This document shows positions 2,984 through 48,329 of a stretch of 64,000 nt of DNA, piece after piece. The DNA is from Planctomycetota bacterium. GTDB taxonomy: Bacteria; Planctomycetota; JAMOSO01. Within the stretch, counting starts at the first letter, position 1; every line of letters starts with the position of its first letter. The DNA is taken from positions 1 through 64,000 of the forward strand of contig JAMOSO010000048.1 of the NCBI GenBank assembly GCA_027063065.1. The letters are read 5' to 3'. The notes beneath the pieces were generated by a model, which saw only the letters and a program-made list of their open reading frames with translations, had not been told where the DNA came from and ran no database searches. The translations under genes and the position numbers were made by a program.

Positions 2984-3601
2984 TTAACATAATTCAATAA
3001 AATTTTCGACTATTTTTAAACCGACTGATTGACTTTTTTCAGGATGAAATTGAGTGCCATAAATATTTTGATATGCAACTGCCGATGGAAATTCTAAACC
3101 ATAATTAGTAGTTGCTGCAACTATATCATTATTATCCGTTTTTAAAAAATAAGTATGTACAAAATATACATGAGAATTAATAGGTATATTATTAAATAAT
3201 TTAGAGCTATTAGAAAAACTTAATTGATTCCAACCCATATGTGGTATTTTAAGCTTAACATCTTTAATATAATCCTTAAAAGATACTATCGAACCATCTA
3301 ACAAACCTAAGCCTTGATAATGTCCATTTTCAAAACTATCATTAAATAATAATTGAAAACCTAAACAAATACCCAATATTGGCTTACCCGCTTTGACCTC
3401 TTTACAAATAATTTTATCTAAGCCCTTTTCTTGCAACAAATCAATAGCATCTCTAAATGCACCTACTCCTGGCAATACTAATTTATCTGCAGAGTGTATT
3501 ACACTAGCCTCATCAGTAATCACGACATTATCACTGTACTTTTCAAAAGCTGTTTCTACACTACGTAAATTACCCATACCATAATCTATAATTGCTATCA
3601 T
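2984..3601 (-). CDS. hisH: Imidazole glycerol phosphate synthase glutaminase subunit (HisH-like)
   Basis: Class I glutamine amidotransferase of 205 residues. The nucleophile cysteine is in GICLGFQ (about residue 79) and the His/Glu pair is in GTQFHPEKSQ (about 187). The N-terminus IDYGMGNLRSV is diagnostic for HisH. The enzyme supplies ammonia to HisF in histidine synthesis. No hisF, hisA or other his gene is in the window; the gene sits last in an operon after the cyclases, 14 bases from them. An orphan paralogue serving a HisF-like synthase of a surface sugar is possible. Confidence 0.8.
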   Translation of the reverse strand: MIAIIDYGMGNLRSVETAFEKYSDNVVITDEASVIHSADKLVLPGVGAFRDAIDLLQEKGLDKIICKEVKAGKPILGICLGFQLLFNDSFENGHYQGLGLLDGSIVSFKDYIKDVKLKIPHMGWNQLSFSNSSKLFNNIPINSHVYFVHTYFLKTDNNDIVAATTNYGLEFPSAVAYQNIYGTQFHPEKSQSVGLKIVENFIELC

Positions 3602-3615
3602 ATTAATCCTTAAAA

Positions 3616-6114
3616 TTATTTAGTTTGCATAACATATCGACCATCCCAATCTGTATTAGGTGGCGTTTGTTGATAAGTTTTTATCCTAGATAAAAATACT
3701 TCACTAGGCTTATCTTTACCATATTTTTTTTGTAAATTTACAAATAAATTTTTAGCATCGACCCAATCCTGAGCAATATAAGCCTGTTTGGCTTCTTGCC
3801 AACAGATTAATTTATCACTCAATTGTTTAGTTAATTCTTTTTTATAACAAATGACCTCATATACCTTAATCGGCTCTGACTTACCTATAAATAAAATAGG
3901 ATCTAATAATCTAGTTACCAATTCATCTTTGATATATTCCCATGTAAATTGCGTAACAACAAAATTAGTACCATAAATTTTATTAGCTCCACGCACGCGT
4001 GCTGCTGTATTGACGACATCACCTATTATAGAATAATTCATTTTTTGTAACGACCCAATATTGCCAACAACCATATTGCCAGAATTTAACCCCGCCTCCA
4101 TAGATAATGGTTGCCAGCCCCTTTTAATCCAATTGGAGTTTAGTTCTTTTAAAATTTTTAAATTATCTAAAATAGCACTACATCCTTTTAAATGATGATC
4201 CGTTGATGGCACTGGAGCACCCCAAAAAGCCATAATTGTATCACCCTCAAACTTATCTAAAGTTCCACCAGTACCTAAAATAGTTTCTGTCATATGTGTA
4301 TGTGATTCTTGCAATAATTGCACAACTTCTTGAGGTTTAAGTTTTGCACATCGATGTGAAAAATCCACCATACCAGAAAAACTAACCGTCATATTTCTAG
4401 TTTCGCCACCTAATGAAACCATAGACGGATTTTTAATAATTTGATTGACCAATGCTGGCGACACAAACCTTCCAAAGGTTTGCTTTAAAATACCTCGCTC
4501 TTTTCCTTCAATTATTTGCTGAATAACTAAAGTTGATATATAACTTAACGACATTACTAAAATAGGTGTAAATAAAGGGATTAAATAATTATACCAACGA
4601 TATAAAACGATACTTACTAATAAATAAATAAATGATAATGTAGTAACAATAATTGCCGAGCGAACAGAAGAAAATATTAAAGTTATGATTGCAACTAACC
4701 AAGCAGAACAAATTAATATTAAAAACAATGTTGTTTGATTACTGTGTGTTAAAAAATCTTCTTCTAAAATATTATTAATGCCAGTCGCAACTATTTCGAC
4801 CCCGGGAGCATCAGCATCAAATGGAGTGACACGTTGATCGTGCAATTCTTTTGCCGTTGATCCTATAATAAAAATACGGTTCTTAATTTTATTTAATAAT
4901 GATGCATAATCTTTTTGAGGTGATGTACTATTGTTAAGTATTTTTTTAGTTAATAATATTTGAAAATATTTTTTTAAAATATTATTTATTTCATTGGCAC
5001 TAAACACATCTGGTGCATCTTGCGAGTCCATTAAAATTGCCAATATATCATTTAAAATTTTAGATAAAGATTGACTAAATTTAATATCCAAAGACTGTAC
5101 AAACTCATCATTACCATTTAATAATTTTAATAAATCTTTATCAATTAACTCATTAGCGCCTAACCATAAATCTTGACCGGGGTCTTCTTCCAATAAACTT
5201 AATAATTTAATTTTAAAATGTTTAGTTAATAACTTTCTAATTTGACGATATGGAATAATTTTATTTTCCCACCTATAAGCATCTAAAATTTTATAATAAG
5301 ATATATAATCAAAAGTAAAAGAATCACCATAATAATTTAAACGCATTTGCCCTTTATCATCTATAGGGATTTTTAAATTACCCTGATATTTAGATTTAAC
5401 ACCTTTCAATTCAAGATATTTTCCGTGGTGATATATTATATCTTTTGCTTTTATACCCTTTAACATCGCTACAGTTGCTACATCAATACTAGCATAATAT
5501 CTGCCATTCATTTGGCGTACGGCTAAACGCCTTCTAAAGACCCCGTCTGCATCAGAACTAATATCAATAAAAGCTACCCATTTAGCATTTTTTGCAAATA
5601 AATTATTTGGAGCGGCTACATTTACTTGCGATATTAATTTTTTATCTGTTGATAGCGTATCAATTGCCCATTTTTGCACATCGCTATCTGGTCCATTTTG
5701 TCTATGCTTAAATACTTCTCCTGTATGAAACATCATAGCCAAACAAGTAGAAGTATCTTTTAGCAAATTAGAAAATTGATTATCCGATAATTGATTAGTT
5801 AAGTCTTTTTCCACAAACAGCACATCAAAGCTAATACTACTTGCACCTTTTGCCTGCAAAAAAGATACAACCTGTCCATGTACTTTACGTGGCCATGCCC
5901 AAGGCCCCAACTCTTGCATACTGGCATCATCAATATCTATAATTGTAATTTGCTTATTTAAAAGTGACGCATCTCTAAAATTATTAGTTCTAAAATCACT
6001 TGTAAAATTTTCTAACCCTTTAATAAAAACCGTAGAACTTAAAAAATACACACATATAGATATTAATACCGCTATTAAAATAGCTAATAATTGAGTTTTA
6101 TTATAGCCTTTCAT
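3616..6114 (-). CDS. CHASE2-domain class III adenylate/guanylate cyclase B (lacks first metal Asp)
   Basis: Membrane cyclase, 832 residues from the ATG at 6114, chosen because it forms a TGATG overlap with the upstream stop; an ATG 33 bases upstream lies inside that gene. Order: N-terminal membrane segment, periplasmic CHASE2 sensor (about 40-440), three membrane helices (about 460-530), cyclase domain (about 575-760) and a TPR-like tail ending TDWDGRYVMQTK. Lys621 and the transition-state Asn702 and Arg706 (IIGDVVNTAAR) are present, and the second metal Asp is at 625. The first metal Asp is replaced by Gly581 (SFSGMVDF instead of FxDxxGF), so metal binding on its own seems lost. The upstream paralogue has the complementary set of residues. 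CHASE2 ligands are unknown. Confidence 0.88.
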   Translation of the reverse strand: MKGYNKTQLLAILIAVLISICVYFLSSTVFIKGLENFTSDFRTNNFRDASLLNKQITIIDIDDASMQELGPWAWPRKVHGQVVSFLQAKGASSISFDVLFVEKDLTNQLSDNQFSNLLKDTSTCLAMMFHTGEVFKHRQNGPDSDVQKWAIDTLSTDKKLISQVNVAAPNNLFAKNAKWVAFIDISSDADGVFRRRLAVRQMNGRYYASIDVATVAMLKGIKAKDIIYHHGKYLELKGVKSKYQGNLKIPIDDKGQMRLNYYGDSFTFDYISYYKILDAYRWENKIIPYRQIRKLLTKHFKIKLLSLLEEDPGQDLWLGANELIDKDLLKLLNGNDEFVQSLDIKFSQSLSKILNDILAILMDSQDAPDVFSANEINNILKKYFQILLTKKILNNSTSPQKDYASLLNKIKNRIFIIGSTAKELHDQRVTPFDADAPGVEIVATGINNILEEDFLTHSNQTTLFLILICSAWLVAIITLIFSSVRSAIIVTTLSFIYLLVSIVLYRWYNYLIPLFTPILVMSLSYISTLVIQQIIEGKERGILKQTFGRFVSPALVNQIIKNPSMVSLGGETRNMTVSFSGMVDFSHRCAKLKPQEVVQLLQESHTHMTETILGTGGTLDKFEGDTIMAFWGAPVPSTDHHLKGCSAILDNLKILKELNSNWIKRGWQPLSMEAGLNSGNMVVGNIGSLQKMNYSIIGDVVNTAARVRGANKIYGTNFVVTQFTWEYIKDELVTRLLDPILFIGKSEPIKVYEVICYKKELTKQLSDKLICWQEAKQAYIAQDWVDAKNLFVNLQKKYGKDKPSEVFLSRIKTYQQTPPNTDWDGRYVMQTK

Positions 6115-8699
6115 CAATGTGTATCCGTTCTTACGCAATAATTCCATGTAGATGAATTGGGTGGATTTACTTTTAAATTTTGACAGCGAGCGATATATTT
6201 AGCACAACCTAACTCGCCATCAAACGCCTTAGCCTTAGCCTGTGTAAATAATTCAATAGCCCTATCCCAATTTTGCGATTTATACGCAACAATAGCTTGT
6301 TCCCAAATAGGTATAAAATCTATGTATTCATTTGGTGGATTATTTTTTTCACTGATTAATTCATAAAAAGCTACAACTCCTCCGTCTAATTCTAAAAACC
6401 AATCTATCTCACGAGTATAAAAATAATCTTTAACTTTCAACCAAGTTCTATAATTAATTAATAATCTAGTACCCCAATTTTTTGATTCTTGTTCTAGTCG
6501 TTCAGCATAATGCCCTTGATCACCGTGTACCGTATACGACATTTTATCCCGCGCTCCCATATTGCCAACTGTAACCATACCAGTATTAATGCCTATGCGA
6601 GCCTTAACATCTGGCAGGCCTTCACTAAGCCATTGCTTGCGTAAACGATCTAATTCTCGTTGACAATTTAAAGCTGCCCTACAAGCTCGTAAATGATGAT
6701 CCTGCAAATCTAATGGTGCATTAAAAAAAGCAAAAATAGCATCTCCTTCATACCTGTCTACCGTACCACCTTCAGCTTGAATCAACTGCGACATAGAATT
6801 TAAATAATGATTAAGTAAAGTTACTAATTCTGCAGGGTTATCCTTAAACTTTTCTGAAATAGTTGTAAAACCTGATAAATCTGAAAAGAAAATAGTTAAT
6901 TCTTTTTCTATGCCACCTAATGAACACTTGTCTGGATGATTAAGAATATCATCAACAACATCACTAGATACATACTTACTAAATGCGTCTTTAATTTTTG
7001 CCTTTTCTTTTTCTTTAAGATAATACTTGGCCAATGTTACATTCACAAATACTAACATAACAGGTAATGCAACTGGTGTTACCTCAAGGTAATATGCATG
7101 ATGGTAAAATAAATATTTAGCTATAAAACCAATAGACAATAAAACTAATATGGTAAATAAACTAGATATCAAAGTTCCAAACTTAGACACAACAATAACT
7201 GCAATTAATCCCAAAATAATTAAACTGCCATATACAAGCCATTTTGGTTCTTGATAAATAAAATCATTTGCAATAATGGTATTGATAGAGTTGGCCGTAA
7301 TACCCATGGTTGGCTCTTTATTGCCAAATGGAGTGGCAGTAAAATCAATTATTCCAGCGGCTGTAATATTAAATAAAACAATTTTATTTTTAAAAGATTT
7401 TAAAAATTGTCGATCCTCAAGAGAAATTATCCCGTTGGCCTCTTGAGCTCTAATGGAAACTTGATATAAATCTGACCAATCAATATTGCGATATGTAGCA
7501 ATTGTCAAATATAAATGAAAAATATTTTGTATGTAATACTGAGTTAATTTTTGCTTAACTAATAAAGTTGCATTGTTACTACGATATATCTTTAACCAGT
7601 GCTTAGCCTCGCTAGAAAGGGATGCAAAATTAATAGAACCTTCTTTATATAAAAAAGTTCCTTTTGATATTAAACCATTAAATTCATTTTTTATATTATT
7701 GATCAGTTCTTTAGGTACCTTAGAATTAACATCCCAAGCATAAATTTGTTTGCGAAGAGCATCGCTTAAATGTGAACGCAAATTTATAATTTCTGGGGTG
7801 TTAATCTCTTTTAATAAAAACAAAATACTTTGTTTATCTTTAAAATCATTTAAATGATAATAATTGGCAAAGTTTATAGGAGCAGATGTTGCTCGGTAAT
7901 AACTACCAAAATAATTAATATTACACCTACCATGCTCATCAATAGGGATATTTAAGGTAGTACCATTAGGCAAGTGCAATACAACAGCATTTGAGTTAAT
8001 TTGAATTTGTTTTATTGCAATATTAAACCAATTACACACAGTTACTAATGACAAAGAAGGATACCATCTATTTTGAAACTCTATAAACAAAGGTACACTA
8101 CGCACAATACCATCGCTATCTAATATAAAATTACGATGTCCTACGTTTTTAACCGCATCACATAACTCATGCATCGGAGCAACCACCGATGTATATACAG
8201 GAGGCTTAATTGCCCCATTGGGTTTAATACCAAATTTTTTAATAACTGATTTTATTTGAGGGCTTGTAAAACCTTTATTTTTAAAGGTTAAAGCTAAAGA
8301 CGCTGTGGGCAATCTTGTAAGCATTTGAGCAAAATTATTATCTGATTCTACGCCAGCAACATTATAATCATTAGCTATAGTTAAATCAGGATAGGCAAAT
8401 GGAATATCATAAGCAATTAAACGAGGCGACCCGATGGCAGTTGTTAATAATTCTAAAATTTGTGATTGAGCTATCTTTTGCCAAGGCCAACGCCCCCACG
8501 ACTCATTGCCCCATTCTAAAGTTTCATCGGTAATATTAACTATAATAATATCTTTAACCATACACTTGTGTGTATTGCGGTTAGTTTTAAATTGTAAAGT
8601 TTCAATACTGCGTTCAAGCCAAAGTAATCCATTATTATTATATAAAATAAATACAAATAATAGTGAAGCCAAACCAGCCCACATCACAGATTTTTTCAT
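6114..8699 (-). CDS. CHASE2-domain class III adenylate/guanylate cyclase A (lacks transition-state Asn)
   Basis: Membrane cyclase of 861 residues with the same plan as its downstream neighbour: N-terminal helix, periplasmic CHASE2 domain (about 40-470), three membrane helices (about 487-560), catalytic domain (about 598-780) and a TPR-like tail (about 795-850). Both metal aspartates are present: D607 in FFSDLSGF and D653 in RYEGDAIF. The adenine-contacting Lys is Arg649. The GDxVNxAxR motif has become GDQGHYAER, so the transition-state Asn is His730 while Arg734 remains. It would therefore supply the metal-binding half of an active site but not the Asn. It overlaps the next gene by TGATG. cAMP or cGMP as product is not decided by the sequence. 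Confidence 0.88.
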   Translation of the reverse strand: MKKSVMWAGLASLLFVFILYNNNGLLWLERSIETLQFKTNRNTHKCMVKDIIIVNITDETLEWGNESWGRWPWQKIAQSQILELLTTAIGSPRLIAYDIPFAYPDLTIANDYNVAGVESDNNFAQMLTRLPTASLALTFKNKGFTSPQIKSVIKKFGIKPNGAIKPPVYTSVVAPMHELCDAVKNVGHRNFILDSDGIVRSVPLFIEFQNRWYPSLSLVTVCNWFNIAIKQIQINSNAVVLHLPNGTTLNIPIDEHGRCNINYFGSYYRATSAPINFANYYHLNDFKDKQSILFLLKEINTPEIINLRSHLSDALRKQIYAWDVNSKVPKELINNIKNEFNGLISKGTFLYKEGSINFASLSSEAKHWLKIYRSNNATLLVKQKLTQYYIQNIFHLYLTIATYRNIDWSDLYQVSIRAQEANGIISLEDRQFLKSFKNKIVLFNITAAGIIDFTATPFGNKEPTMGITANSINTIIANDFIYQEPKWLVYGSLIILGLIAVIVVSKFGTLISSLFTILVLLSIGFIAKYLFYHHAYYLEVTPVALPVMLVFVNVTLAKYYLKEKEKAKIKDAFSKYVSSDVVDDILNHPDKCSLGGIEKELTIFFSDLSGFTTISEKFKDNPAELVTLLNHYLNSMSQLIQAEGGTVDRYEGDAIFAFFNAPLDLQDHHLRACRAALNCQRELDRLRKQWLSEGLPDVKARIGINTGMVTVGNMGARDKMSYTVHGDQGHYAERLEQESKNWGTRLLINYRTWLKVKDYFYTREIDWFLELDGGVVAFYELISEKNNPPNEYIDFIPIWEQAIVAYKSQNWDRAIELFTQAKAKAFDGELGCAKYIARCQNLKVNPPNSSTWNYCVRTDTH

Positions 8700-8709
8700 A
8701 AATAATAAT

Positions 8710-10569
8710 TTACTCAGTTATACCAATTTTAATGGCTTCTTCTAAAGTAGTAATACCACGTTGTGCCAACATCATTACATGTCCACCCAAAGTTATCATA
8801 CCCTCTTGTCTAGCAACTTTCCCTATCTCTAAATTGTTACCACGATTAGTGATTATTTCACGAATAGCTTTTGAATACAAACTCATAACCTCAAAAACTG
8901 GCACGCGCCCTTTATAACCTATATCATGACATTTATTACAGCCAGCACCTTTAAAAAATTTCATGGTTTTTAATTTATCATCATCATAACCCATAGCTTC
9001 AAGCATTACTTTTTCATCAGCTGTTGGCAAATGCTCTGCTTTACAATCTGTGCAGATTCTTCTAGCTAATCTTTGTGCCACAATAACCCTTACTGCTGCC
9101 GCCACCAAAAAAGGCTGAACATTCATATCAAATAAACGTGTAACAGTAGACGGTGCGTCATTGGTATGTAATGTCGAAAACACCAAATGCCCTGTTAATG
9201 CCGCCTTAATAGCAATGCCAACAGTTTCAGCATCTCTAATTTCACCAACTAAAATAATATCTGGATCTTGACGTAAAAAAGCTCGCAGGGCTACTTCAAA
9301 TGTAAAACCTATGCTTTGTTGAACATTAACCTGAGTGATACCATGCAAATTATATTCTACAGGATCTTCTGCTGTAGTAATGTTTGTACGCGGATCATTA
9401 AGTTGATTTATCATTGTATAAAGACTGGTAGATTTTCCAGACCCTGTTGGACCCGTAACTAAAATCATTCCAAACGTTCCAGATAAGGCGCGCTGTACAA
9501 TAGCCTCTTGCTCTGGTTCCATACCTAAAGATGCAATGTCATCACTTAATTTACTTTGCCCTAATAAACGCATTACTACTTTTTCGCCATAAATTGTTGG
9601 CAAAGTATTAACACGCAATTCTAACTCTCGTCTACCTAGTTTTAATTTAATTCTACCGTCTTGAGGTATACGCCTTTCGGCGATATCCATATTAGACATA
9701 ATCTTAATGCGACTTGTTACAGGGTTTTTAACAGAGGCTGGCAAGTTCATCATTTCATGCAAAGTACCATCTATTCTAAAACGCACCCGAAAGCTTTTTT
9801 CAAATGGTTCAATATGAATATCACTAGCCTCCATCTCATCGGCTTTAACAATAATACCATTAACCATTTTAATAATTGGCGGAGCATCAGCCTGCATAGA
9901 TACGCGATATTCAGATTCTTGTGTTTCACCAGAATCAAATACTACATCATCTAATACGCCTGAGACAATTGCGTCAAAATCTTTTATCTCTAAAGATTTT
10001 TTAGCTTCTTCGACACTTAAACCTTCATCAGCTTCAACATTACCCTGAGCAGCATAATTTTTTTTAAGCAAAGACATGCTCTTTGTTTGCTCATCTACAC
10101 TAGATTTCATACTATCCAAGCCTGTACGCAATAGATTGGTATCTCTGGTTTTTTCATCGCCGTAAAGACTGTTCCAATGCTCTTCTATAATTTGCGGGCC
10201 AGTAAGGTAAATCTTTAATTTTTTATCTAATTTACGGGCTATGGTCTCTAACTGTAAAGAGGCACTTACATCTAAAAAAGCAATATGTAAAAATTGATCA
10301 TCACATTTAAAGGGCACACATTTGCATTGACGTGCCACACGCCATGGCACACACTTATCTAGGTCTTTAGAAATTTCATCAATATGAGCAATTGGATATT
10401 TTGTTTGCTCTGAAACAACATTAAGAAGCTGTTCCTCTTCTATCATATTATTTTTAATTAAAATAGAGCCTAAAAACTCACGGCTTTTTGTCTGAATACC
10501 CAAAGCCTCAGACAGTTGCTTTTGATTAATAAGCCCGCGCTCTATTAATATTTCACCAAGTTTTTTCAT
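8710..10569 (-). CDS. gspE: Type II secretion / type IV pilus assembly ATPase (GspE/PilB family)
   Basis: Cytoplasmic hexameric ATPase driving pseudopilus or pilus assembly. The 619-residue protein starts with an MshEN-type domain (about 1-140), then an N2-like domain. The Walker A GPTGSGKST is at 373-381, the Asp box is around DPVEY at 402, Walker B is DPDIILVGEIRD near 435-446 and the His box STLHTNDA near 465. A zinc-binding CTDC...CNKC pair lies at about 506-557. It shares a 4-base overlap with the upstream small gene and ends 10 bases before the cyclase. No other secretin, GspF or pilin gene is adjacent; gspK is 50 kb away. GspE and PilB cannot be told apart here. Confidence 0.9.
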   Translation of the reverse strand: MKKLGEILIERGLINQKQLSEALGIQTKSREFLGSILIKNNMIEEEQLLNVVSEQTKYPIAHIDEISKDLDKCVPWRVARQCKCVPFKCDDQFLHIAFLDVSASLQLETIARKLDKKLKIYLTGPQIIEEHWNSLYGDEKTRDTNLLRTGLDSMKSSVDEQTKSMSLLKKNYAAQGNVEADEGLSVEEAKKSLEIKDFDAIVSGVLDDVVFDSGETQESEYRVSMQADAPPIIKMVNGIIVKADEMEASDIHIEPFEKSFRVRFRIDGTLHEMMNLPASVKNPVTSRIKIMSNMDIAERRIPQDGRIKLKLGRRELELRVNTLPTIYGEKVVMRLLGQSKLSDDIASLGMEPEQEAIVQRALSGTFGMILVTGPTGSGKSTSLYTMINQLNDPRTNITTAEDPVEYNLHGITQVNVQQSIGFTFEVALRAFLRQDPDIILVGEIRDAETVGIAIKAALTGHLVFSTLHTNDAPSTVTRLFDMNVQPFLVAAAVRVIVAQRLARRICTDCKAEHLPTADEKVMLEAMGYDDDKLKTMKFFKGAGCNKCHDIGYKGRVPVFEVMSLYSKAIREIITNRGNNLEIGKVARQEGMITLGGHVMMLAQRGITTLEEAIKIGITE

Positions 10570-28744: not shown

Positions 28745-31700
28745 ATGGATTTTGATGAAAGTATCGTAGCAGAATTTATTGAAGAGTCTGAAGAACATCT
28801 TGATGGAATTGAAGATGATTTATTGGCAATTGAACAAGCTGGAGCAGATGTAGATCCAGATGTAGTCAATGAGGTTTTTCGTGCATTACACACTATTAAG
28901 GGAGGTGCTGGGTTTTTAGCCTTAAATGTCATTAAAGAATTAGCTCATCATCAAGAGCATCTTTTAAATTTAATTAGAAAAGGCGAGTTGATTCCAACGC
29001 CAGAAATTGTCAATAGCCTGTTAAATGGTATTGATAAATTGCGTAGTTTAATAGCAGATTATGCCAATAGTAATGAAGAAGACGTAAGTGATTTGGTGGC
29101 GGATTTACAACGTGTAGCCAACGCAGACAGTAGTGCTGATAGTGTTGGCTCTGATGAGGTTCAATCGCTTGATTCAAATGCCTCTTCAAATACCTCTTCA
29201 AATACCTCTTCTAATAGTGATAAAAACATTGTGAAAATCTACAACGAAAACAATGTAGAGCTTTTTACCACAGATATGTCCTTGATAGAAAATGAACGAG
29301 GCAAAGGACATTATTTATATATTTTAACTGCAGATTTGACCAAGGCGACAGATGAGAATAGTGACCCTAATAAAGTTGCTGAACACTGGAAAGGTATAGG
29401 CACAGTATTAAAAAGTTCTAAAAAATTAAATGAAGGGCTTTGTGATGATATACAAGAAAGTCAACTTCCAGAATTACATTTGTTTTTGGCAACCGTTTTA
29501 GAACCAGATATGTTAAATGTGATGATTGAAGTGCCTGGTCAAAGTTTGCGACATTTGGATGATGATGATTTTATTGCGGCAGATGATACTGCGCAAAACA
29601 CTGTTGCTTCAACGGAATCTGTATCAAAAGCGCCAAATGTAGCAACGCCAAGTCTTGAGACTAAAACAGAGAAACCGGTATCTACTCCGGTTGAAGTAAA
29701 GCCAGCTCCTGTTAAAGTGGCGTCAGCACCCGTAAAAGCGCCCGTCAAAAATGCTGAAAAAGCAACCCCTCCTAAAAAAGTAGATGCTAGTATTCGAGTA
29801 CAGTTAAATACTTTAAATACATTAATGACTTTGGCTGGAGAGTTAGTATTAGCTAGAAATCAGTTGGTGCAAAGTGTAAAATCTGCAGATATGTCTACAG
29901 TTGAAGGTGTTACTCAACGTGTGGATACAATAACATCTGAATTGCAATTAGCAATTATGGCCACTCGTATGCAACCTATTGGCAATGTGTTTAATAAGTT
30001 TAAACGAGTAGTACGAGATTTATCACGTACACTAAAAAAAGAAATAGAATTAGAAATTACTGGTGAAGATGTTGAACTTGATAAGACCATTATTGAAGCA
30101 ATAGGCGATCCTTTAACGCACTTAATTAGAAACGCCTGTGATCATGGTATTGAATTGCCAGCAAAACGTTTAGCTGCTGGTAAGCCTAAATCAGGTCGTA
30201 TGGCTTTACGCGCTTTTTATGAAGCTGGTCAGGTAATTATTCAAATAGAAGATAACGGTAATGGTATTGATGCTACTAAAGTAAAAGCTAAGGCTTTAGA
30301 AGGCGGTGCTTGGACGGCGGAACAGCTTGATGCAATGCCAGAAAAAGAAATAGTTAAATTGATTTTTAATCCTGGATTTTCTTTGGCAGAAAAAGTAACA
30401 GATGTTTCAGGACGTGGCGTTGGCATGGATGTTGTGTTTCAAAATTTAACCAAGATAGGCGGTGTTATCGATATTGATACAGAGGTTGGTAAAGGTTCAA
30501 TATTTACCATTAAGTTACCATTGACCCTTGCCATTATGCCAAGTTTATTAATTTCATTAGCTAAACATAATTATGCAATTCCTCAGGTAAATTTAGTAGA
30601 ATTAGTTCGCATTTCGCCAGATAAAATTCAAGAGAGCATACAGACTATAGGTGAAGCCGTGATATTGCGCTTAAGAGATGTCTTATTGCCTATATTGCGT
30701 TTAAGCGATGTGTTAGGTCTTGAAAGTAGATCTTTTTTCGATCCTGAAACAGGTATCGAACGCCCATGCAGGCGTGATGCCATTGCGGATAGACGTAGTA
30801 ATGAAAGCGCTAAACAAAAAGCAAAAAATGATGAAAATCGATTGTCTACTGATAGACGTAGTATTATAAATAGTTCTATGAATATTGTAGTGGTAAACCA
30901 GGGTGGTTTTCACTATGGCTTAATTGTGGATGATTTTTTAGATTCTGAAGAAATAGTTGTGAAGCCACTTGGTAAACATTTGCAAGATTGTAAATGTTAT
31001 GCTGGAGCTACTATTCAAGGAGATGGTTCTGTGGCATTGATTTTGGATGTGGTTGGCATTTCTGATCATATGAATCTTGGTGCATTGCAAGACGCCAACT
31101 CTAATGTGGATGAGGTAGTTGATGATTCATTAGAAGAAGATCATAGTTTATTGTTGGTTAAAAATCATAAAGATGAACAGTTTGCCGTACCTTTATCGTT
31201 AATAGAGCGAATAGAAAAGATTAAAAATGAAGATATTGTCGAAGCAGGTGGCAGATCATCTATTCAGTACCGTGGTGGGTCATTGGCATTATTTTCTATT
31301 GAAGAAGTTGCGCAGGTTAAACCACGCAGTACTGATGGTGATATTTATGTATTAGTATTTGAAGTTGCTAAACGTGAAGTTGGTGTATTGGTTTCTGATG
31401 TTGTTGATGTTTTGGATTATAAAGGCGAAATTGACGAAAGTACTTTCTCGCAAAAATGCATATTTGGTTCTGGTATTATGAATAATGTAACTACATTATT
31501 GTTGGATTTACAGGGAATTATTCAAGAAAGTTGTCCAGAATGGTTTGTTAAACTTGATGCTAAAACATCAGAATCTATCGATGGTTCTAACGGAAAAACA
31601 ACACGTAGTAAGAAGATTTTAGTAGTTGACGATTCAAAGTTCTATCGCAATCAGATATCTCGTTTTATAACAGAGACAGGTTGTGAGGTTGTAACAGCAG

Positions 31701-31975
31701 AAGATGGAGCACAGGCATTAGAGCTAGTTGAAAATTCTTTAGATGATCCTTTTGGAGTGGTTTTTACAGATATTGAAATGCCTGTAATGGACGGGTTAGA
31801 GTTTACACGTAAAGTAAGGGCTAATCCTCACTTTAGTGATTTGCCGATGGTAGCTATTACTTCTGTGGCTGGTTCTACAGGAGAGAAAGCTGGTTTTGAG
31901 GCCGGTGTAGATAGGTATTTAATTAAATTAGACAAAAATAGTATAGTTGAAGCTTTAGAAAACTATGTGTTTTAA
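28745..31975 (+). CDS. cheA: Hybrid chemotaxis histidine kinase CheA with two CheW-like domains and a receiver
   Basis: Protein of 1076 residues. The N-terminal Hpt domain has phospho-His49 (ALHTIKGGAGFL). A low-complexity stretch (ASSNTSSNTSSNSD, near 145-158, from a 12-base tandem repeat) and a Pro/Lys/Val-rich linker follow. The P3 dimerisation segment starts near 350. The ATPase boxes include HLIRNACDHGIE (N box), DNGNGID (G1) and DVSGRGVGMDVV (G2). Two CheW-like domains follow (about 585-770 and 800-940), then a C-terminal receiver with phospho-acceptor Asp in VVFTDIEMPVMDG near 1018. This plan is common in non-flagellar or pilus chemosensory systems. First gene of cheA-cheW-cheB-cheR. 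Confidence 0.93.
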   Translation: MDFDESIVAEFIEESEEHLDGIEDDLLAIEQAGADVDPDVVNEVFRALHTIKGGAGFLALNVIKELAHHQEHLLNLIRKGELIPTPEIVNSLLNGIDKLRSLIADYANSNEEDVSDLVADLQRVANADSSADSVGSDEVQSLDSNASSNTSSNTSSNSDKNIVKIYNENNVELFTTDMSLIENERGKGHYLYILTADLTKATDENSDPNKVAEHWKGIGTVLKSSKKLNEGLCDDIQESQLPELHLFLATVLEPDMLNVMIEVPGQSLRHLDDDDFIAADDTAQNTVASTESVSKAPNVATPSLETKTEKPVSTPVEVKPAPVKVASAPVKAPVKNAEKATPPKKVDASIRVQLNTLNTLMTLAGELVLARNQLVQSVKSADMSTVEGVTQRVDTITSELQLAIMATRMQPIGNVFNKFKRVVRDLSRTLKKEIELEITGEDVELDKTIIEAIGDPLTHLIRNACDHGIELPAKRLAAGKPKSGRMALRAFYEAGQVIIQIEDNGNGIDATKVKAKALEGGAWTAEQLDAMPEKEIVKLIFNPGFSLAEKVTDVSGRGVGMDVVFQNLTKIGGVIDIDTEVGKGSIFTIKLPLTLAIMPSLLISLAKHNYAIPQVNLVELVRISPDKIQESIQTIGEAVILRLRDVLLPILRLSDVLGLESRSFFDPETGIERPCRRDAIADRRSNESAKQKAKNDENRLSTDRRSIINSSMNIVVVNQGGFHYGLIVDDFLDSEEIVVKPLGKHLQDCKCYAGATIQGDGSVALILDVVGISDHMNLGALQDANSNVDEVVDDSLEEDHSLLLVKNHKDEQFAVPLSLIERIEKIKNEDIVEAGGRSSIQYRGGSLALFSIEEVAQVKPRSTDGDIYVLVFEVAKREVGVLVSDVVDVLDYKGEIDESTFSQKCIFGSGIMNNVTTLLLDLQGIIQESCPEWFVKLDAKTSESIDGSNGKTTRSKKILVVDDSKFYRNQISRFITETGCEVVTAEDGAQALELVENSLDDPFGVVFTDIEMPVMDGLEFTRKVRANPHFSDLPMVAITSVAGSTGEKAGFEAGVDRYLIKLDKNSIVEALENYVF

Positions 31976-41197: not shown

Positions 41198-41279
41198 GTA
41201 AAAATCTTTTTTTCATTAAATTTCCTTTATATATCGAACAAATGAAGTATGCTAATATGTATATTCATTTACATTGGTC

Positions 41280-43268
41280 ATGTGGGGGAACGTGAAAGAA
41301 ATTAAAATAATTACCAATGATTCTTGGCTCGAATCACACAGAGGCGCTATTGAAGGGCGTTTAAACCATTATCAATATTTGAGTAAGCAATTGCCGGGTT
41401 CAAATCAAACTTTGGCAGATTATGCGCAAGGATATTTATATTATGGTTTACATAAACAACAAGATTGTTGGGTACTGCGTGAATGGGCTCCTAATGCGAC
41501 CGAAATTTTTTTGATAGGCGATTGTAATAGTTGGTCTAAATCTGATGATTATGCTTTTAAGCGCATTAATCAAGCAGGGGATTGGGAATTGCATCTACCG
41601 TTAGATAAATTAACTCATTATGCAGAATATCGTTTACATATTTTTTGGGCGGAAGGCAATGGCGAACGTTTACCAGCCTATGTTAATAGGGTAGTGCAAA
41701 ACCCGGAAACACATGGGTTTAATGCTCAAGTTTGGAGTCCTCCAAAACAATTTGTATGGCAAAATAATGCTCCTCTACGCCCGCGGGAACTGACCGTATA
41801 CGAAGCGCATATTGGTATGGCATTAGAAGAAGGTAGGGTTGGTAGTTACATAGAATTTGCTAACTATATTTTACCTAAGATTGTTGAAGCAGGATATAAC
41901 ACTGTTCAACTTATGGCTATTATGGAACATCCATATTATGGTTCATTTGGCTATCAGGTGTCTAATTTCTTTGCCCCATCTTCACGTTTTGGAACTCCAG
42001 ATGAATTAAAATATTTGGTTGATACAGCGCATGGTTTAGGTCTGAATGTCATTATGGATTTGGTACATTCTCATTGTGTAAAAAATGCAGTTGAAGGTAT
42101 TGCTTTGCAAGATGGTACAGATTATCAATATTTTCATGGTGGCGATAAGGGCTTGCACCCCGCTTGGGATAGTCGTTGTTTTAATTATGCTAAATATGAG
42201 GTGATTCATTTTTTATTATCTAATTGTCGCTATTGGTTAGAAGAATTTAAATTTGATGGTTACCGTTTTGATGGTGTTACCAGTATGTTGTATCACGATC
42301 ATGGTTTGGGTAAATCCTTTACATCTTATGCTGATTATTATGGGGATAATTGTGATAATGACGCTATCGCTTATTTGTCCTTGGCCAATAATGTAATTCA
42401 TAGTGTTAAACCTAACGCCATTACTATTGCCGAAGATATGAGTGGTATGCCCGGTATTGGTTTACCGTGCGATGATGGTGGTTTAGGTTTTGATTATCGT
42501 CTATGTATGGGTTTACCAGATATGTGGATTAAACTTTTAAAAGAAGTGCGTGATGAAGATTGGGATATGGGGCAGATTTGGCATGAGTTAATCAATAGAC
42601 GTATGGGTGAAAATTCTATTGCGTATGCAGAGAGTCACGATCAAGCTTTGGTGGGAGATAAGACGCTTATTTTTAGGCTGATTGATGCAGAAATGTACAC
42701 GTCTATGAATAAAGATTCTAGGTCTGTAGTAGTCGATAGAGGGATAGCTATTCATAAATTATTGCGTTTAATTACTTTTACTGCAGGTGGTGAAGGCTAT
42801 TTAAACTTTATGGGTAATGAATTTGGTCATCCAGAATGGATTGATTTTCCACGTGAAGGTAATAATTGGAGTTATCATTACGCTAGACGTCAATGGTCCT
42901 TGGCAGATGCAGATTATTTGCGTTATAAAGGCTTGGCAGAATTTGACAAACAGATGCTTGGTGCTTGTACGTCTGTGTTAAGCTGTACGGATACTACTTT
43001 GATTTTAGAGCATATTGCTAATCAGATTATAAGTTTTAAACGTGGTGAATTTGTGTTTGTGTTTAATTTTAATGGTACACAATCTTTTGAAAATTTTGCT
43101 TTGCCAATTGGTGGCGAGTTTGAGTTGATTTTTTGTACTGATGAATTGCGTTTTGGCGGACATGGTAGAGTTGAATTGCCACAGTATTTTGGCACAATAA
43201 GTGGTACAGAAATATTATTATATTTGCCCACACGTTCGGCATTGGTTTTAAAAGAAAAAAATAAATAA
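41280..43268 (+). CDS. glgB: Eukaryote-type 1,4-alpha-glucan branching enzyme (GH13_8-like)
   Basis: Makes alpha-1,6 branches in glycogen. The N-terminal CBM48-type domain (about 25-160) precedes a GH13 barrel. Catalytic text: RFDGVTSMLYHDHG (Asp nucleophile, near 340), ITIAEDMSG (Glu acid, near 395) and AESHDQALVGDK (His-Asp, near 455). The wording YGSFGYQVSNFFAPSSRFGTP and GNEFGHPEWIDFPREG matches animal/plant branching enzymes more than E. coli GlgB. The ATG at 41280 is chosen; a GTG at 41292 is also possible, and both lack an ideal ribosome site. First gene of the alpha-glucan cluster. Confidence 0.9.
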   Translation: MWGNVKEIKIITNDSWLESHRGAIEGRLNHYQYLSKQLPGSNQTLADYAQGYLYYGLHKQQDCWVLREWAPNATEIFLIGDCNSWSKSDDYAFKRINQAGDWELHLPLDKLTHYAEYRLHIFWAEGNGERLPAYVNRVVQNPETHGFNAQVWSPPKQFVWQNNAPLRPRELTVYEAHIGMALEEGRVGSYIEFANYILPKIVEAGYNTVQLMAIMEHPYYGSFGYQVSNFFAPSSRFGTPDELKYLVDTAHGLGLNVIMDLVHSHCVKNAVEGIALQDGTDYQYFHGGDKGLHPAWDSRCFNYAKYEVIHFLLSNCRYWLEEFKFDGYRFDGVTSMLYHDHGLGKSFTSYADYYGDNCDNDAIAYLSLANNVIHSVKPNAITIAEDMSGMPGIGLPCDDGGLGFDYRLCMGLPDMWIKLLKEVRDEDWDMGQIWHELINRRMGENSIAYAESHDQALVGDKTLIFRLIDAEMYTSMNKDSRSVVVDRGIAIHKLLRLITFTAGGEGYLNFMGNEFGHPEWIDFPREGNNWSYHYARRQWSLADADYLRYKGLAEFDKQMLGACTSVLSCTDTTLILEHIANQIISFKRGEFVFVFNFNGTQSFENFALPIGGEFELIFCTDELRFGGHGRVELPQYFGTISGTEILLYLPTRSALVLKEKNK

Positions 43269-43299
43269 TATAAGAATTTTAAATATAAAGGAGTACAAT

Positions 43300-43845
43300 A
43301 TGGCAAAAGTAGTTAAAAAAGCCGTAACAAAAACCGCAAAGAAAGCGGCTAAGAAAGTAGCAAAAAAAGAAGTTAAGAAAGTGGCAAAAAAAGTAGCAAA
43401 AACCCCTGTAAAAAAAGTGACTAAAAAAGCTACTGCAACAAAAAAAGTAACGACAGCTAAAAAGGTTGTTGCAAAAAAATCAGTTGCAAAAAAACCAGCC
43501 TTGCCAAAGGCTTTATTAACTACATGGTTAAAGGGTCGCGATGGTTGGAATGATTTAGATTGGTGGCAGTTACTTGAATATTTACGCGCTGAAGGCCATT
43601 CTTTTTACGCAGATGTTCAAGAAGGGCGTGAGGCTGTATCTGCCTTTTTAAAAGAAAAATCAACTTCAAGTGTTAAATTGCCTAAAAGATTGTTAAATGC
43701 TTGGTTAAAAGGTCGCACAAGTTGGAATCATGATGATTGGTTGGGCTTGTTAAAAGAGCTTGAAGAAGCAGGGCATAAAAAATTAGTTCATTCTTCTAAA
43801 AGTTTATTAGCCATTGGTCATTATTTAGAATCAAACGTAGGTTAA
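43300..43845 (+). CDS. Lysine-rich histone-like protein with duplicated Trp-rich units
   Basis: 181 residues. The first 65 are KKA/KKV repeats like histone H1 or bacterial HC-type proteins. Two homologous units follow: KALLTTWLKGRDGWNDLDWW with 25 more residues (about 70-110) and KRLLNAWLKGRTSWNHDDWL with its equivalent (about 125-165). They share the pattern LL-x2-WLKGR-x2-WN-x-DW-x2-LL-x4-GH. A GGAG site precedes the ATG. It lies 31 bases after glgB and 2 bases before the debranching gene, so it is co-expressed with glycogen enzymes. DNA or polyanion binding is likely; a scaffold for the glycogen particle is conceivable. I do not recognise the duplicated unit. Confidence 0.85.
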   Translation: MAKVVKKAVTKTAKKAAKKVAKKEVKKVAKKVAKTPVKKVTKKATATKKVTTAKKVVAKKSVAKKPALPKALLTTWLKGRDGWNDLDWWQLLEYLRAEGHSFYADVQEGREAVSAFLKEKSTSSVKLPKRLLNAWLKGRTSWNHDDWLGLLKELEEAGHKKLVHSSKSLLAIGHYLESNVG

Positions 43846-43847
43846 TT

Positions 43848-45815
43848 ATGTGTGAAGGGTCAATCAAAGGAGATATTAATTTAAATAGTCATTTAGAATT
43901 AGAATGGCTTGAAACCAACGGCTTAGGTGCCTATGCTAGCTCGACACCAACTACGTGTCATACGCGCAAATACCATGGTTTATTAGTAAGCTCCCTGCCA
44001 AATTTAGAAGGTCGTTATGTATTGTTGTCGGAAATGCCAACGGCAGTTATTTTTGACGATGAGATTGTTGAACTTTCTACTAATCGTTATAGCGATGTGT
44101 TTCATCCAGCAGGTTACTCTTTGATTGACTCTTTTGATTTTGAGCCGTGCCCAACAACAAAGTGGAAAGTTGGGCGAGCAGAAATCACTCGTAGTATTTT
44201 AATGGTTCGCGGAGAAAATGCCGTTTATATGCGTTATTCTTTAAAGGGGCAAAAAAATGTACAGTTGTCTATGCGTCCCCTGTTAAGTTATCGCAATTCT
44301 CATGTATTAACTTTTGAAAATATGGATTTAAAATCACAGGCTTATGATATAGGTAAAAGTGTATCATTTAGTCCATACGAAGGTATGCCGTCTTTGCATT
44401 TTCAATCTTCGTGTCCATTAGAATTTAAACCAGCACCTTTTTGGGAGCACGGCGTTAAATATTTATGGGAAGAAAGACGAGGTTTTGACAACTGTGAAGA
44501 TCGCTTTTGTCCCGGTGTTTTTAACTATAACTTAAGCAGTAAAAATGATTTAATCATTAGAGTTGCAATTGATACTTTAGAAGATGAAACACAAATAATT
44601 AATAATTATAATCAAGAATTATCTCGTAGAACTAAGCGCGCTCAAAAGTGTAAAACTTCATCCAAATCTTTAAGCTTGTTAAAACGTAAGTCCGAAGACT
44701 TTTGTATTATTAATGCCAATAACGAAGCGTCTGTAGTAGCTGGTTACCCATGGTTTGGAGAATGGGGTCGCGATACAATGATAGCTTTGCCAGGCTTAAC
44801 TTTTTTTGCCGATAATGCTCAGCATGGTATTGATGTTTTAAAAGCGTACGCTTCTCATGTAGTCGATGGTTTATTACCTAACACTTTGGGCGGGTTGCAG
44901 GGGTTTGAGTCTTATAATTCTGTTGATGCTTCTTTGTGGTATTTTTGGGCTGTACAGCAAATGGTTAAACACCATGGTATTAATGCTGTTGATATACAAT
45001 TATTTAATATTTTAGAATCAATTATTACCGCATATTTTGAGGGTCGCGTACCTGTAGCGCATATTATTTCTGGTGGTTTATTAAGCGCTGGTACTGAAAG
45101 CTCTCAGTTGACTTGGATGGACGCTACTGCTTGGGGGCGTCCTGTTACGCCTCGTCACGGTTGCGCGGTTGAAATTAATGCATTGTGGTATAATGCTTTA
45201 TGTTTTTATGATGAATTATGTGCCGTATTTAATAAAGAATGTTTAGATGATGCTCGCGAGGCTATTATTAGCTTTCCAGAAACTTTTATCAAACGTTTTT
45301 GGTTGCAAGATAAAGGATTTTTAGCTGATGTAGTGGGTAAATGGGGCATAGACCCATCTTTGCGACCCAATCAAATTTTTGCTGTGTCATTGCCTTATTC
45401 TGCATTAGATGATAAGTGTGCACGTGCGGTTGTGAATGCCGTTAATGATTCTTTGGTAACGCCATTTGGCATACGTACTTTAGCACCAGATGCTCCACAT
45501 TATTGTTCTCGTTATGCAGGTAATGGTGATGAACGTGATAGCACTTATCATCAAGGAACGGTTTGGCCATGGCCAATGGGGCATTTTATTGAAGCAGAAT
45601 TAAAAGTAAGCCATAACATAAAAGAAACGGCGATTAATCGTTTAGAGGCTTTAAAGCCCTTACTTAACGAGCATCTTTATCAAGCTGGATGGGGTGGTAT
45701 TTCTGAGATTTTTGACGGTTCTGAACCTCACACCCCACAAGGGTGTATTTCTCAAGCATGGTCTGTATCTGAGATTATCAGAGCTTGTACGTTGCTTGAG
45801 AGGGCAAGGAAATAA
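43848..45815 (+). CDS. Glycogen debranching enzyme, amylo-alpha-1,6-glucosidase type (GH133-like)
   Basis: 655 residues. N-terminal domain begins LEWLETNGLGAYASSTPTTCHTRKYHGLLV, the hallmark of the bacterial/archaeal glycogen debranching family. The C-terminal (alpha/alpha)6 barrel includes VAGYPWFGEWGRDTMIALPGL near 298-318, LPNTLGG, DATAWGRPVTPRHG near 425 and YHQGTVWPWPMGHF near 565. It removes alpha-1,6-linked glucose. Two bases separate it from the preceding gene and two from the following one. Confidence 0.9.
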   Translation: MCEGSIKGDINLNSHLELEWLETNGLGAYASSTPTTCHTRKYHGLLVSSLPNLEGRYVLLSEMPTAVIFDDEIVELSTNRYSDVFHPAGYSLIDSFDFEPCPTTKWKVGRAEITRSILMVRGENAVYMRYSLKGQKNVQLSMRPLLSYRNSHVLTFENMDLKSQAYDIGKSVSFSPYEGMPSLHFQSSCPLEFKPAPFWEHGVKYLWEERRGFDNCEDRFCPGVFNYNLSSKNDLIIRVAIDTLEDETQIINNYNQELSRRTKRAQKCKTSSKSLSLLKRKSEDFCIINANNEASVVAGYPWFGEWGRDTMIALPGLTFFADNAQHGIDVLKAYASHVVDGLLPNTLGGLQGFESYNSVDASLWYFWAVQQMVKHHGINAVDIQLFNILESIITAYFEGRVPVAHIISGGLLSAGTESSQLTWMDATAWGRPVTPRHGCAVEINALWYNALCFYDELCAVFNKECLDDAREAIISFPETFIKRFWLQDKGFLADVVGKWGIDPSLRPNQIFAVSLPYSALDDKCARAVVNAVNDSLVTPFGIRTLAPDAPHYCSRYAGNGDERDSTYHQGTVWPWPMGHFIEAELKVSHNIKETAINRLEALKPLLNEHLYQAGWGGISEIFDGSEPHTPQGCISQAWSVSEIIRACTLLERARK

Positions 45816-45817
45816 AA

Positions 45818-47107
45818 ATGCGTATCCTAATGTTAGGCTGGGAATTTCCGCCTTACATTAGTGGTGGCTTAGGTACAGCTTGTCAGGGCATAGCTAAAGG
45901 ATTAATCGAAGAACATATTGCGATTACTTTAGTTTTGCCTCAAGTGCCAGATGCCGGTTTAGGTGGTATTGAATTTTTATCAGCAGAAGATGTTGCTCCT
46001 CTTAGTGTTGCAGAATCTAAGATTAAAGAAAAATTATATTCGGGTTTTGAAGATTTAATTACGGTTGAATCTTGTATAAATCCTTATTTTGATGAAGAAG
46101 AATATCAATTTCAAAAAGCAAGGGTTATGCAGTTGTCGCAACAACAGCAACGACAGGAATACGATAGGGGAAAGATTTACCTTGAAGGGCAATATGGTGA
46201 TAACTTATTAGCAGAGGTAAGTCGTTTTGCCCGTGTAGGTACTAGGTTAGGTTTAAGGGGTAAATATGATATTATTTATGCCCATGATTGGATGACAATG
46301 TTAGCGGGTGTCGAGGCGGCTAATCAAAGCGCTACCCCATTAGTTTTGCATATTCATTCTACTGAGTATGACAGAAATAGCACCAATCCAAATCAACAAA
46401 TTATAGATATTGAAAAATTTGCTATGCAAAAAGCCGATATGCTAGTTACTGTGTCTAATCGCAGTAAAGATGTTTTAATTAATCATTATGCGATTAAGCC
46501 TAAAAAAATCTCAGTGGTATATAATGCTCTTACTCAAGTGAAAATAGATAATACATTATTAGATGATTCACATAAGTTTAAAGAAAAGTTGATATTATTT
46601 ATGGGGCGCATTACCGAGCAAAAAGGGCCAGAGTTTTTTATTAAAGCGGCTAAAAAAGTTTTACAGCACAATAGTAATTTGCGTTTTATTATGGCCGGAT
46701 GTGGCGATCAATTGCCTAAAATGATTGAATTAGTAGCCACTGAACGCATGGAGCGACATTTTCATTTTACTGGTTTTTTACGCGGTGAGGAAGTTCATAA
46801 AATCTTTAATTTATGTGATTTGTTTGTGATGCCTTCAGTTAGCGAGCCATTTGGTTTAGTGCCTTTAGAGGCTATGGGATATGGATTACCGACTATTATT
46901 TCTAAGCAATCAGGTGTTGCCGAGATTTTATCCAACGCTATAAAGGTGGATTTTTGGGATACTGATGCAATATCACAATCTATACTTAGTGCATTAGATA
47001 ATGATGAGTTAGGTGAAAAATCCGCTGATGAAGTTAAAAATTTAAGTTGGGGTTCGCCAGCTAAACAATTAAAAAACATTTTTGAAACTCTTGTTAAGCG
47101 TTTTTAA
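45818..47107 (+). CDS. Glycogen/starch synthase-like glycosyltransferase (GT-B fold)
   Basis: 429 residues. The N-terminus MLGWEFPPYISGGLGTACQGI has the GGLG donor loop typical of glycogen synthases. The C-terminal domain shows LFMGRITEQKGPEFF near 267-281 and the E-x7-E motif in SVSEPFGLVPLEAMGYGLPTI near 345-365. It is shorter than GT5 GlgA (about 480) and has GT4-like text, so sugar donor (ADP- or UDP-glucose) is undecided. No glgC is in the window. Confidence 0.85.
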   Translation: MRILMLGWEFPPYISGGLGTACQGIAKGLIEEHIAITLVLPQVPDAGLGGIEFLSAEDVAPLSVAESKIKEKLYSGFEDLITVESCINPYFDEEEYQFQKARVMQLSQQQQRQEYDRGKIYLEGQYGDNLLAEVSRFARVGTRLGLRGKYDIIYAHDWMTMLAGVEAANQSATPLVLHIHSTEYDRNSTNPNQQIIDIEKFAMQKADMLVTVSNRSKDVLINHYAIKPKKISVVYNALTQVKIDNTLLDDSHKFKEKLILFMGRITEQKGPEFFIKAAKKVLQHNSNLRFIMAGCGDQLPKMIELVATERMERHFHFTGFLRGEEVHKIFNLCDLFVMPSVSEPFGLVPLEAMGYGLPTIISKQSGVAEILSNAIKVDFWDTDAISQSILSALDNDELGEKSADEVKNLSWGSPAKQLKNIFETLVKRF

Positions 47108-47110
47108 AAG

Positions 47111-48319
47111 ATGAAACATTTAAATTTCTATTTTCAGTTACATCAACCATATAGATTGTGCCCGAGTTATAATTTTTTTGCAATGGGTAAAAATCATGAT
47201 TATTTTGATGATAGTTTAAATAAAATGATTATGCAAAGGGTGGCGCAAAAGTGTTATCTACCAGCTAATGATATGATGTTGCAGTTAATTAAAAATTACG
47301 ATCTGCATATTAGTTTCTCTTGTAGTGGTGTTTTTTTAGAGCAATGTCAAAAATGGTCTCCAGAGGTGATAGAATCATTTAATAAATTATATGCGACAGG
47401 TAATGTGGAGTTTTTGTCAGAGACTTATTATCATTCTTTATCTTCTGTTTTTTCTAATCAGGAATTTGGTGAGCAGATAGATTTACATGCAAAGTTACTA
47501 AAAAAATTATTTAATGCCGAAGCTTCTGTTTTTAGAAATACGGAATTAATCTATAATGATATTATCGCACAGGAAATTCAAAAGCGTGGCTATACTGGTA
47601 TTTTAACAGAAGGCGCTGATAAAATTTTGGCATGGCGTAGTCCTAATAGACTTTATCAACCACAAACTTGTGACAATTTGGCTTTATTACTTAAAAATTA
47701 TGACTTATCTGACGATATAGCTTTTAGATTTATACAAAATGGCCAACCTTTGCGATTAGATGACTATATCGCTAAGTTAAATAATGGTTTTTTGGATGGA
47801 AATCTAATTAATATTTTTATGGATTATGAAACATTTGGAGAGCATCAAAGTAAAGAGACAGGCATCTTTGATTTTTTTATAAATTTAATTAAAAATTTAC
47901 AAAATAAAAAGATTCAGACATTAACAACTAGCCAAGTGATTAAACATCACAATATCGTTGCTAAGTTACAAGTGTTAGACGCTATATCATGGGCTGATAC
48001 AAACCGTGATTTAAGTCCATGGTTGGGCAATTCTTTACAAGATTCTGCAATGCGTTTTGCTTATGAATTGGAAGGGGCAGTTAGACAGTCAAAAGATAAA
48101 AAGATTATTGATGATTGGCGTAAACTTTTGATTTCAGATCATTTTTATTATATGTCAACCAAAGATAAAGGCGATGGTGAAGTACATAAGTATTTTTCAC
48201 CTTTTTCAACACCGCATGATGCTTATGTGGTGTATACAAATGTGTTAAACGATTTAAGTATGCGACTAGAAGCAGAAGGCATATATTTGCCAGATTTACG
48301 CTTTGGATGGTCGCAATAA
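47111..48319 (+). CDS. Glycoside hydrolase family 57 enzyme (alpha-amylase/4-alpha-glucanotransferase type)
   Basis: 402 residues. The start LNFYFQLHQPYRL is the GH57 conserved region 1. The nucleophile Glu is in FRNTELIYND near 140 and the acid Asp in FMDYETFGEH near 238. A short C-terminal helical domain follows. It probably hydrolyses or transfers alpha-1,4-glucans in glycogen turnover. It lies 3 bases after the glycosyltransferase gene. Confidence 0.88.
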   Translation: MKHLNFYFQLHQPYRLCPSYNFFAMGKNHDYFDDSLNKMIMQRVAQKCYLPANDMMLQLIKNYDLHISFSCSGVFLEQCQKWSPEVIESFNKLYATGNVEFLSETYYHSLSSVFSNQEFGEQIDLHAKLLKKLFNAEASVFRNTELIYNDIIAQEIQKRGYTGILTEGADKILAWRSPNRLYQPQTCDNLALLLKNYDLSDDIAFRFIQNGQPLRLDDYIAKLNNGFLDGNLINIFMDYETFGEHQSKETGIFDFFINLIKNLQNKKIQTLTTSQVIKHHNIVAKLQVLDAISWADTNRDLSPWLGNSLQDSAMRFAYELEGAVRQSKDKKIIDDWRKLLISDHFYYMSTKDKGDGEVHKYFSPFSTPHDAYVVYTNVLNDLSMRLEAEGIYLPDLRFGWSQ

Positions 48320-48329
48320 TAGGAGTTAT

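Follow-up and report, generated by a model that had tools for sequence, protein, structure and literature searches.

The stretch of DNA that we analysed (here called the window; 64,000 nucleotides from a contig of a Planctomycetota bacterium) carries two class III cyclase genes in tandem on the reverse strand. Cyclase A (6114..8699, 861 residues) is built, according to its open reading frame, Pfam matches and predicted fold, from a CHASE2 sensor, membrane helices C-terminal of CHASE2, a class III cyclase domain and a C-terminal tail. Cyclase B (3616..6114, 832 residues) likewise joins CHASE2 to a class III cyclase domain. The two genes meet in a TGATG stop/start overlap (6112..6116, reverse strand) that can be read directly in the sequence, the TGA of A and an in-frame ATG of B at base 6114 sharing bases, and translational coupling would be expected from it. 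A longer reading frame for B also exists (3616..6147, reverse strand, 843 residues), but its Met12, the ATG of the overlap, is most likely the start of the protein. We therefore number B from there, i.e. the ORF number minus 11. A type II/IV secretion (pilus-type) ATPase with an MshEN domain is encoded 10 bases upstream of A (8710..10569) and a class I glutamine amidotransferase (HisH-like) 14 bases downstream of B (2984..3601), both on the reverse strand, and these two genes probably form one operon with A and B. Elsewhere the window holds a glycogen/alpha-glucan cluster (41274-50849; branching enzyme-like protein, debranching enzyme and phosphorylase) and a CheA-type hybrid kinase (28745-31975; Hpt, CheA core, CheW and receiver). 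The presence of this kinase together with the secretion ATPase upstream of A is suggestive, and only suggestive, of a link between cAMP and type IV pili.

Both proteins are recognised by Pfam well over the cut-off, A with CHASE2 at 1.7e-34 and Guanylate_cyc at 4.2e-15, and B with CHASE2 at 4.6e-46 and Guanylate_cyc at 2.8e-15. Hydrophobic segments follow CHASE2 on its C-terminal side in both chains (residues 493-561 in A) and, with the Pfam CHASE2 match, mark A and B as CHASE2 sensor proteins; an N-terminal helix is clear in B and falls under a simple threshold in A. The domain order CHASE2, membrane helices, class III cyclase is that of Sinorhizobium CyaD1, CyaD2 and CyaK (PMC13001267) and of intact single CHASE2 cyclases, which unlike A and B keep all catalytic residues and are expected to be homodimers. 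The catalytic domains of both, predicted as single chains, took on class III folds with high confidence, at a pLDDT of 92.0 for A, with P. aeruginosa CyaB (3r5g) as best PDB match, and of 92.6 for B, with a synthetic phytochrome-cyclase (6fht) as best match. Both predicted folds resemble the CyaB, CyaC and Cya2 structures, as befits class III nucleotide cyclases.

Class III active sites form between two domains, one of which supplies the metal ligands and the other the base-reading Lys, Asn and Arg. The same arrangement is described in PMC8815786. We placed the corresponding residues of A and B by alignment to solved cyclases (CyaB 3r5g and 6fht) and some 40 relatives. Written in the order metal Asp 1, Lys, metal Asp 2, Thr, Asn, Arg (Me1-K-Me2-T-N-R), the signature is D R D T H R in A and G K D S N R in B. 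A keeps the first metal ligand Asp607 (GAT, 6879..6881) and the second, Asp653 (GAT, 6741..6743), and has Arg649 (AGG, 6753..6755) in place of the adenine Lys and His730 (CAT, 6510..6512) in place of the transition-state Asn. B has Gly581 (ORF 592; GGT, 4372..4374) at the first metal Asp and keeps the adenine Lys621 (ORF 632; 4252..4254), the transition-state Asn702 (ORF 713; 4009..4011) and Arg706 (ORF 717; 3997..3999), all codons lying on the reverse strand. For both chains the alignment agrees with the residue assignments that a preliminary description had made from the DNA letters and translations. Ser695 of B occupies the base-reading Thr/Asp position. B also keeps a phosphate-side Lys, Lys745 (ORF 756; 3880..3882, reverse strand), without counterpart in A. 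We considered it as a third diagnostic residue and found it weak evidence, because intact single cyclases vary there too and carry Ile or Arg.

Homodimeric bacterial class III cyclases hold the full residue set in each chain, which is the case for neither protein, A being without Lys and Asn and B without the first Asp. The two chains complement each other in the manner of C1/C2-type enzymes, A plus B supplying every residue at one site. The split is partial compared with that of the other pairs described below, since A retains Arg734 and Thr723 and B retains the second metal Asp. The preliminary description had named beforehand one observation that would speak against the loss in B, namely that Asp584 serves as a shifted metal ligand. 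This residue stands three positions past the lost Asp, at the glycine position of RGF (the Gly of FSDxxGF), where intact relatives mostly have Gly, Asn, Ser, Lys or Asp; in six intact cyclases an Asp at this point coexists with the metal Asp. Asp584 is therefore natural variation, and we rejected it as a substitute ligand.

A single base separates each changed catalytic codon from a canonical one (GAT to GGT, AAT to CAT, AAG to AGG), as it would if the pair were an ordinary intact one and its losses were artefacts of assembly or sequencing. We regard such an artefact as extremely improbable: three errors hitting three catalytic codons are unlikely, neighbouring motifs are altered too (FSGMVDFS in B and GDQGHYAER in A), the reading frames of A and B are free of frameshifts, and the same division of residues recurs in 21 other assemblies.

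The set of relatives was extended beyond the Planctomycetota cyclases by a scan of named genomes, with aligned metal-deficient chains as query, and by a survey of 396 Nitrospirota genomes. Complementary CHASE2 cyclase pairs are present in at least 21 other genomes, including Nitrospirota and Planctomycetota (22 with the window), and CHASE2 is recognised by Pfam in both chains of all pairs scanned. The two genes are adjacent in 20 of the 21 other genomes (21 of 22 counting the window). The sole complementary pair with its genes far apart is that of genome G552, on separate contigs (C13 41087-43825 and C55 108246-110354), where the opposite defects are both kept. All metal-deficient chains (23/23) retain Lys, Asn, Arg and the phosphate Lys, and each such chain with a readable neighbourhood is matched by a partner that keeps both Asp but not the Asn (both Asp in 22/22 partners, Asn in 0/22); the twenty-third metal-deficient chain (G781) stops near the contig end. 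Unpaired cyclases have both metal Asp, the Asn and the Arg intact in 112 of 112 cases, in a table that omits duplicates, truncated rows, a degenerate single cyclase (L089) and fused double-domain proteins (L198). Losses in this table are limited to members of complementary pairs, which argues against chance. Because the set was built with metal-deficient queries, its frequencies are no population estimate; no selection was made, however, on the partners.

The pairs of Nitrospirota and Planctomycetota (for example L111, L109 and L231) resemble A/B in being adjacent CHASE2 cyclases with complementary losses, and differ in that the first gene is the metal-deficient one, from which both Asp are gone, while its partner has lost Arg as well as Asn. 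Nearly all CHASE2-type cyclases read from Planctomycetota relatives are intact; the exceptions are neighbouring genes, L071/L109 and L068/L110, that have opposite defects and come from two genera of another family. Adjacency alone is no sign of complementarity, because one tandem (L278) consists of two intact non-CHASE2 cyclases. The pair of a Nitrospirales genome (G394) comprises the only class III cyclases found there. Neighbouring genes differ between the pair lineages examined, and no partner gene is shared among these neighbourhoods. A scan of genome contigs with single proteins returned no close relatives of the A/B pair, and when 59 and 392 Planctomycetota genomes were searched, A and B alike had only intact singletons as best matches. 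Some organism labels among the relatives look doubtful (L142, L143 and L112): cyclases labelled 'Helicobacteraceae' fall inside a Treponema clade, and a genome labelled 'Dependentiae' has 3.8 Mb and 13 cyclase matches.

These comparisons bear on whether both chains are needed for catalysis. One chain alone, most likely A, could be active as a homodimer with His and Arg standing in for Asn and Lys, the other chain being regulatory or silent. A does retain Asp607, Asp653, Arg734 and Thr723, and His in place of Asn is also found in metal-supplying partners of other pairs (L241 and L244), suggesting that His may be a tolerated state. However, in the metal-supplying chains of other pairs the Asn is replaced by Thr, Ala, Glu, Arg or His and the Arg almost always by Glu, which makes solo catalysis unlikely, and the invariant Lys, Asn, Arg and Lys of the metal-deficient partner would be hard to account for unless these residues are used. 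We consider it improbable that a single chain carries the activity.

It is more improbable still that A and B are two decaying pseudo-cyclases without cAMP output, their cyclase domains being left with a dimerisation or scaffolding role in CHASE2 receptors. The long tree branches of A and B, reflecting fast evolution, would fit with decay, and a degenerate single CHASE2 cyclase with a kinase domain does exist (L089). Against it, the losses across 22 genomes are strictly complementary and not random, the genome retains cyclic-nucleotide-binding proteins whose phosphate-binding motif is of the usual kind, and both chains of the large family are under purifying selection of similar strength, with dN/dS values (omega) of 0.08-0.23 between related genomes and the most conserved blocks of both chains around the active site. 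These selection figures are those of the large family, the A/B pair itself being without a close relative in the collections searched.

To follow the origin of the pairs we built trees of the cyclase domains with the six catalytic columns removed and compared topologies by AU tests. A family of seven genomes forms one clade, in which the metal chains and the Lys/Asn/Arg chains are sisters, and L117/L119 form another clade of like internal structure. Uniting all nine metal chains in one clade is rejected (p 0.0002), as is uniting all nine Lys/Asn/Arg partners (p 0.0003). Grouping A with the seven-member metal clade (p 0.007) and B with the seven-member Lys/Asn/Arg clade (p 0.002) is rejected too, so that A and B are not orthologous to the large Nitrospirota-type family. 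Joining the window pair to L117/L119 gives p 0.28 and 0.36 for the two subunits, and a sister relation of A and B is compatible with the data (p 0.56, or p 0.36 with a longer region and closer singletons). The nearest relatives of A and B outside the pair are intact singletons, shared by both. A single origin of all pairs is rejected, both between the two other lineages and between the window pair and the large family. By these tree comparisons complementary pairs have at least two, and probably three, separate origins, which is also supported by the differing gene order, the metal subunit being encoded first in the window pair and second in the other pairs.

Taken together our results point to a membrane-bound, C1/C2-like adenylyl cyclase that has a single working site and of which A and B are the two chains, a reading to which we give a probability of about 0.84. 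The cyclase domains of A and B would pair head to tail, as those of other class III cyclases do. One interface site would then be complete, with Asp607 and Asp653 of A holding the metals and with Lys621, Ser695, Asn702, Arg706 and Lys745 contributed by B. The second site would be dead, as B is without the first metal Asp and A without Asn and Lys. With one site complete and the other dead, each heterodimer would make cAMP at a single site, and homodimers of A or of B would fall short of full activity. For a physical complex of A and B, gene adjacency and the TGATG overlap are indirect evidence. As for the product, Lys621 is the Lys expected at the base-reading positions of the complete site and Ser695 takes the place of Thr/Asp, and a Lys plus Ser/Thr combination predicts ATP as substrate. 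We infer both the assembly of A and B into a heterodimer and cAMP as its product. Probably an intact single gene was duplicated in tandem and the two copies then underwent complementary loss, and other bacteria would have taken the same route independently. A laboratory version of such an arrangement exists in the mycobacterial enzyme Rv1625c, where the complementary point mutants D300A and R376A regain activity in trans (PMC4821796). The preliminary description had proposed an obligate heterodimer divided as in mammalian C1/C2, and the core of this proposal finds strong support in the residue split, the alignment, the recurrence in other genomes and the two or more origins; on its further suggestion of an AND gate of two sensors our results weigh neither for nor against.

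Each chain has its own CHASE2 domain, and two sensory inputs would thus be able to act on one site; both may be used. Alternatively, the heterodimer could have one working site and one functional sensor, the second CHASE2 being structural and no AND gate being formed. In the large family the CHASE2 domain of the metal chain is less conserved (0.18-0.39 over blocks of 60 residues) than that of the Lys/Asn/Arg chain (0.27-0.56). Known heterodimers often sense through one chain. For the fungal rhodopsin cyclase NeoR the role of the input is unclear (PMC8815786). Both CHASE2 domains are nevertheless kept and recognisable in every pair scanned, and we put the chance of a single functional sensor just short of even. 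Returning to the heterodimer with two inputs, we are led to speculate, with the odds somewhat against us for the whole of the proposal, that two-gene obligate heterodimeric adenylyl cyclases evolved repeatedly in bacteria from tandem CHASE2 duplicates, each with one site read out as a two-sensor coincidence detector and with the dead site free as an allosteric pocket, in parallel with eukaryotic C1/C2 and alpha/beta enzymes.

Soluble guanylyl cyclase alpha/beta is encoded by two genes and is an obligate heterodimer with one working site, of which only one subunit senses. It shares with our proposal the two genes and the one working site but is an animal, cytosolic, GTP-specific enzyme with a haem sensor on one chain. 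In mammalian transmembrane adenylyl cyclases (C1/C2), as in A/B, the metal Asp come from one domain, Lys, Asn and Arg come from the other, and the second site is degenerate. These enzymes are, however, single chains with two six-helix membrane domains and a Lys/Asp pair, whereas A and B are two bacterial proteins with CHASE2 and Lys/Thr-Ser (class IIIb-like), and the origins are separate. The fungal NeoR/RGC rhodopsin guanylyl cyclases consist of two membrane-sensor cyclases that function only as a pair (PMC8815786), as we propose for A and B, but they are guanylyl cyclases with light sensors, and RGC1 and RGC2 keep their catalytic residues, unlike A and B; the reason for NeoR/RGC heterodimerisation therefore lies elsewhere.

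Bacterial class III cyclases have been stated to be homodimers, and the complementary division of the site to be a eukaryotic feature that came about via duplication and fusion (PMC9552081, PMC4821796). In our search of the literature available without subscription we found no paper joining CHASE2, adenylate cyclase and heterodimer, and no description of natural two-chain bacterial heterodimeric class III cyclases. The word 'heterodimer' is counted as occurring in a 2004 survey of actinobacterial cyclases (PMC2447327), and an earlier suggestion of such pairs may be found there. If our hypothesis were correct, natural two-chain heterodimers of several origins would correct the homodimer-only statement of reviews, would represent replicate evolutionary experiments on a symmetric enzyme turning asymmetric, and would offer ready-made two-input cAMP switches. 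A simple rule for annotation follows, namely that an apparently dead CHASE2 cyclase should prompt a look for a neighbour with the opposite defect.

The genome of the window encodes four cyclic-nucleotide-binding proteins (L100 1402-2418, L101 976-1986 and L102 1405-2388, all on the reverse strand, and L099 1255-2175 on the forward strand) that are, by their domains, likely readers of cAMP. Three of them have two binding domains each and a GE...PRxAT motif, and one is single-domain. All four share an N-terminal module and are unusual as cAMP effectors, no DNA-binding domain being visible in any of them. The one other class III cyclase of the same genome (L093 6750-8108, reverse strand) carries, at the base-reading positions, Gln where the adenine Lys would stand and Gly in the Thr position. 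Among the other proteins met in the searches, the single gene L089 (2985-6956, forward strand) combines a protein kinase-like domain, CHASE2 and a fully degenerate cyclase domain (RGGTH-) and is a probable pseudo-cyclase. Two further proteins (L198 2-4027 and L279 3-4253, both on the reverse strand) each carry two cyclase domains on one chain, with the metal ligands kept in the first and Asn and Arg in the second; L198 contains an AAA domain as well and has the look of a bacterial pseudo-heterodimer of the soluble-adenylyl-cyclase type.
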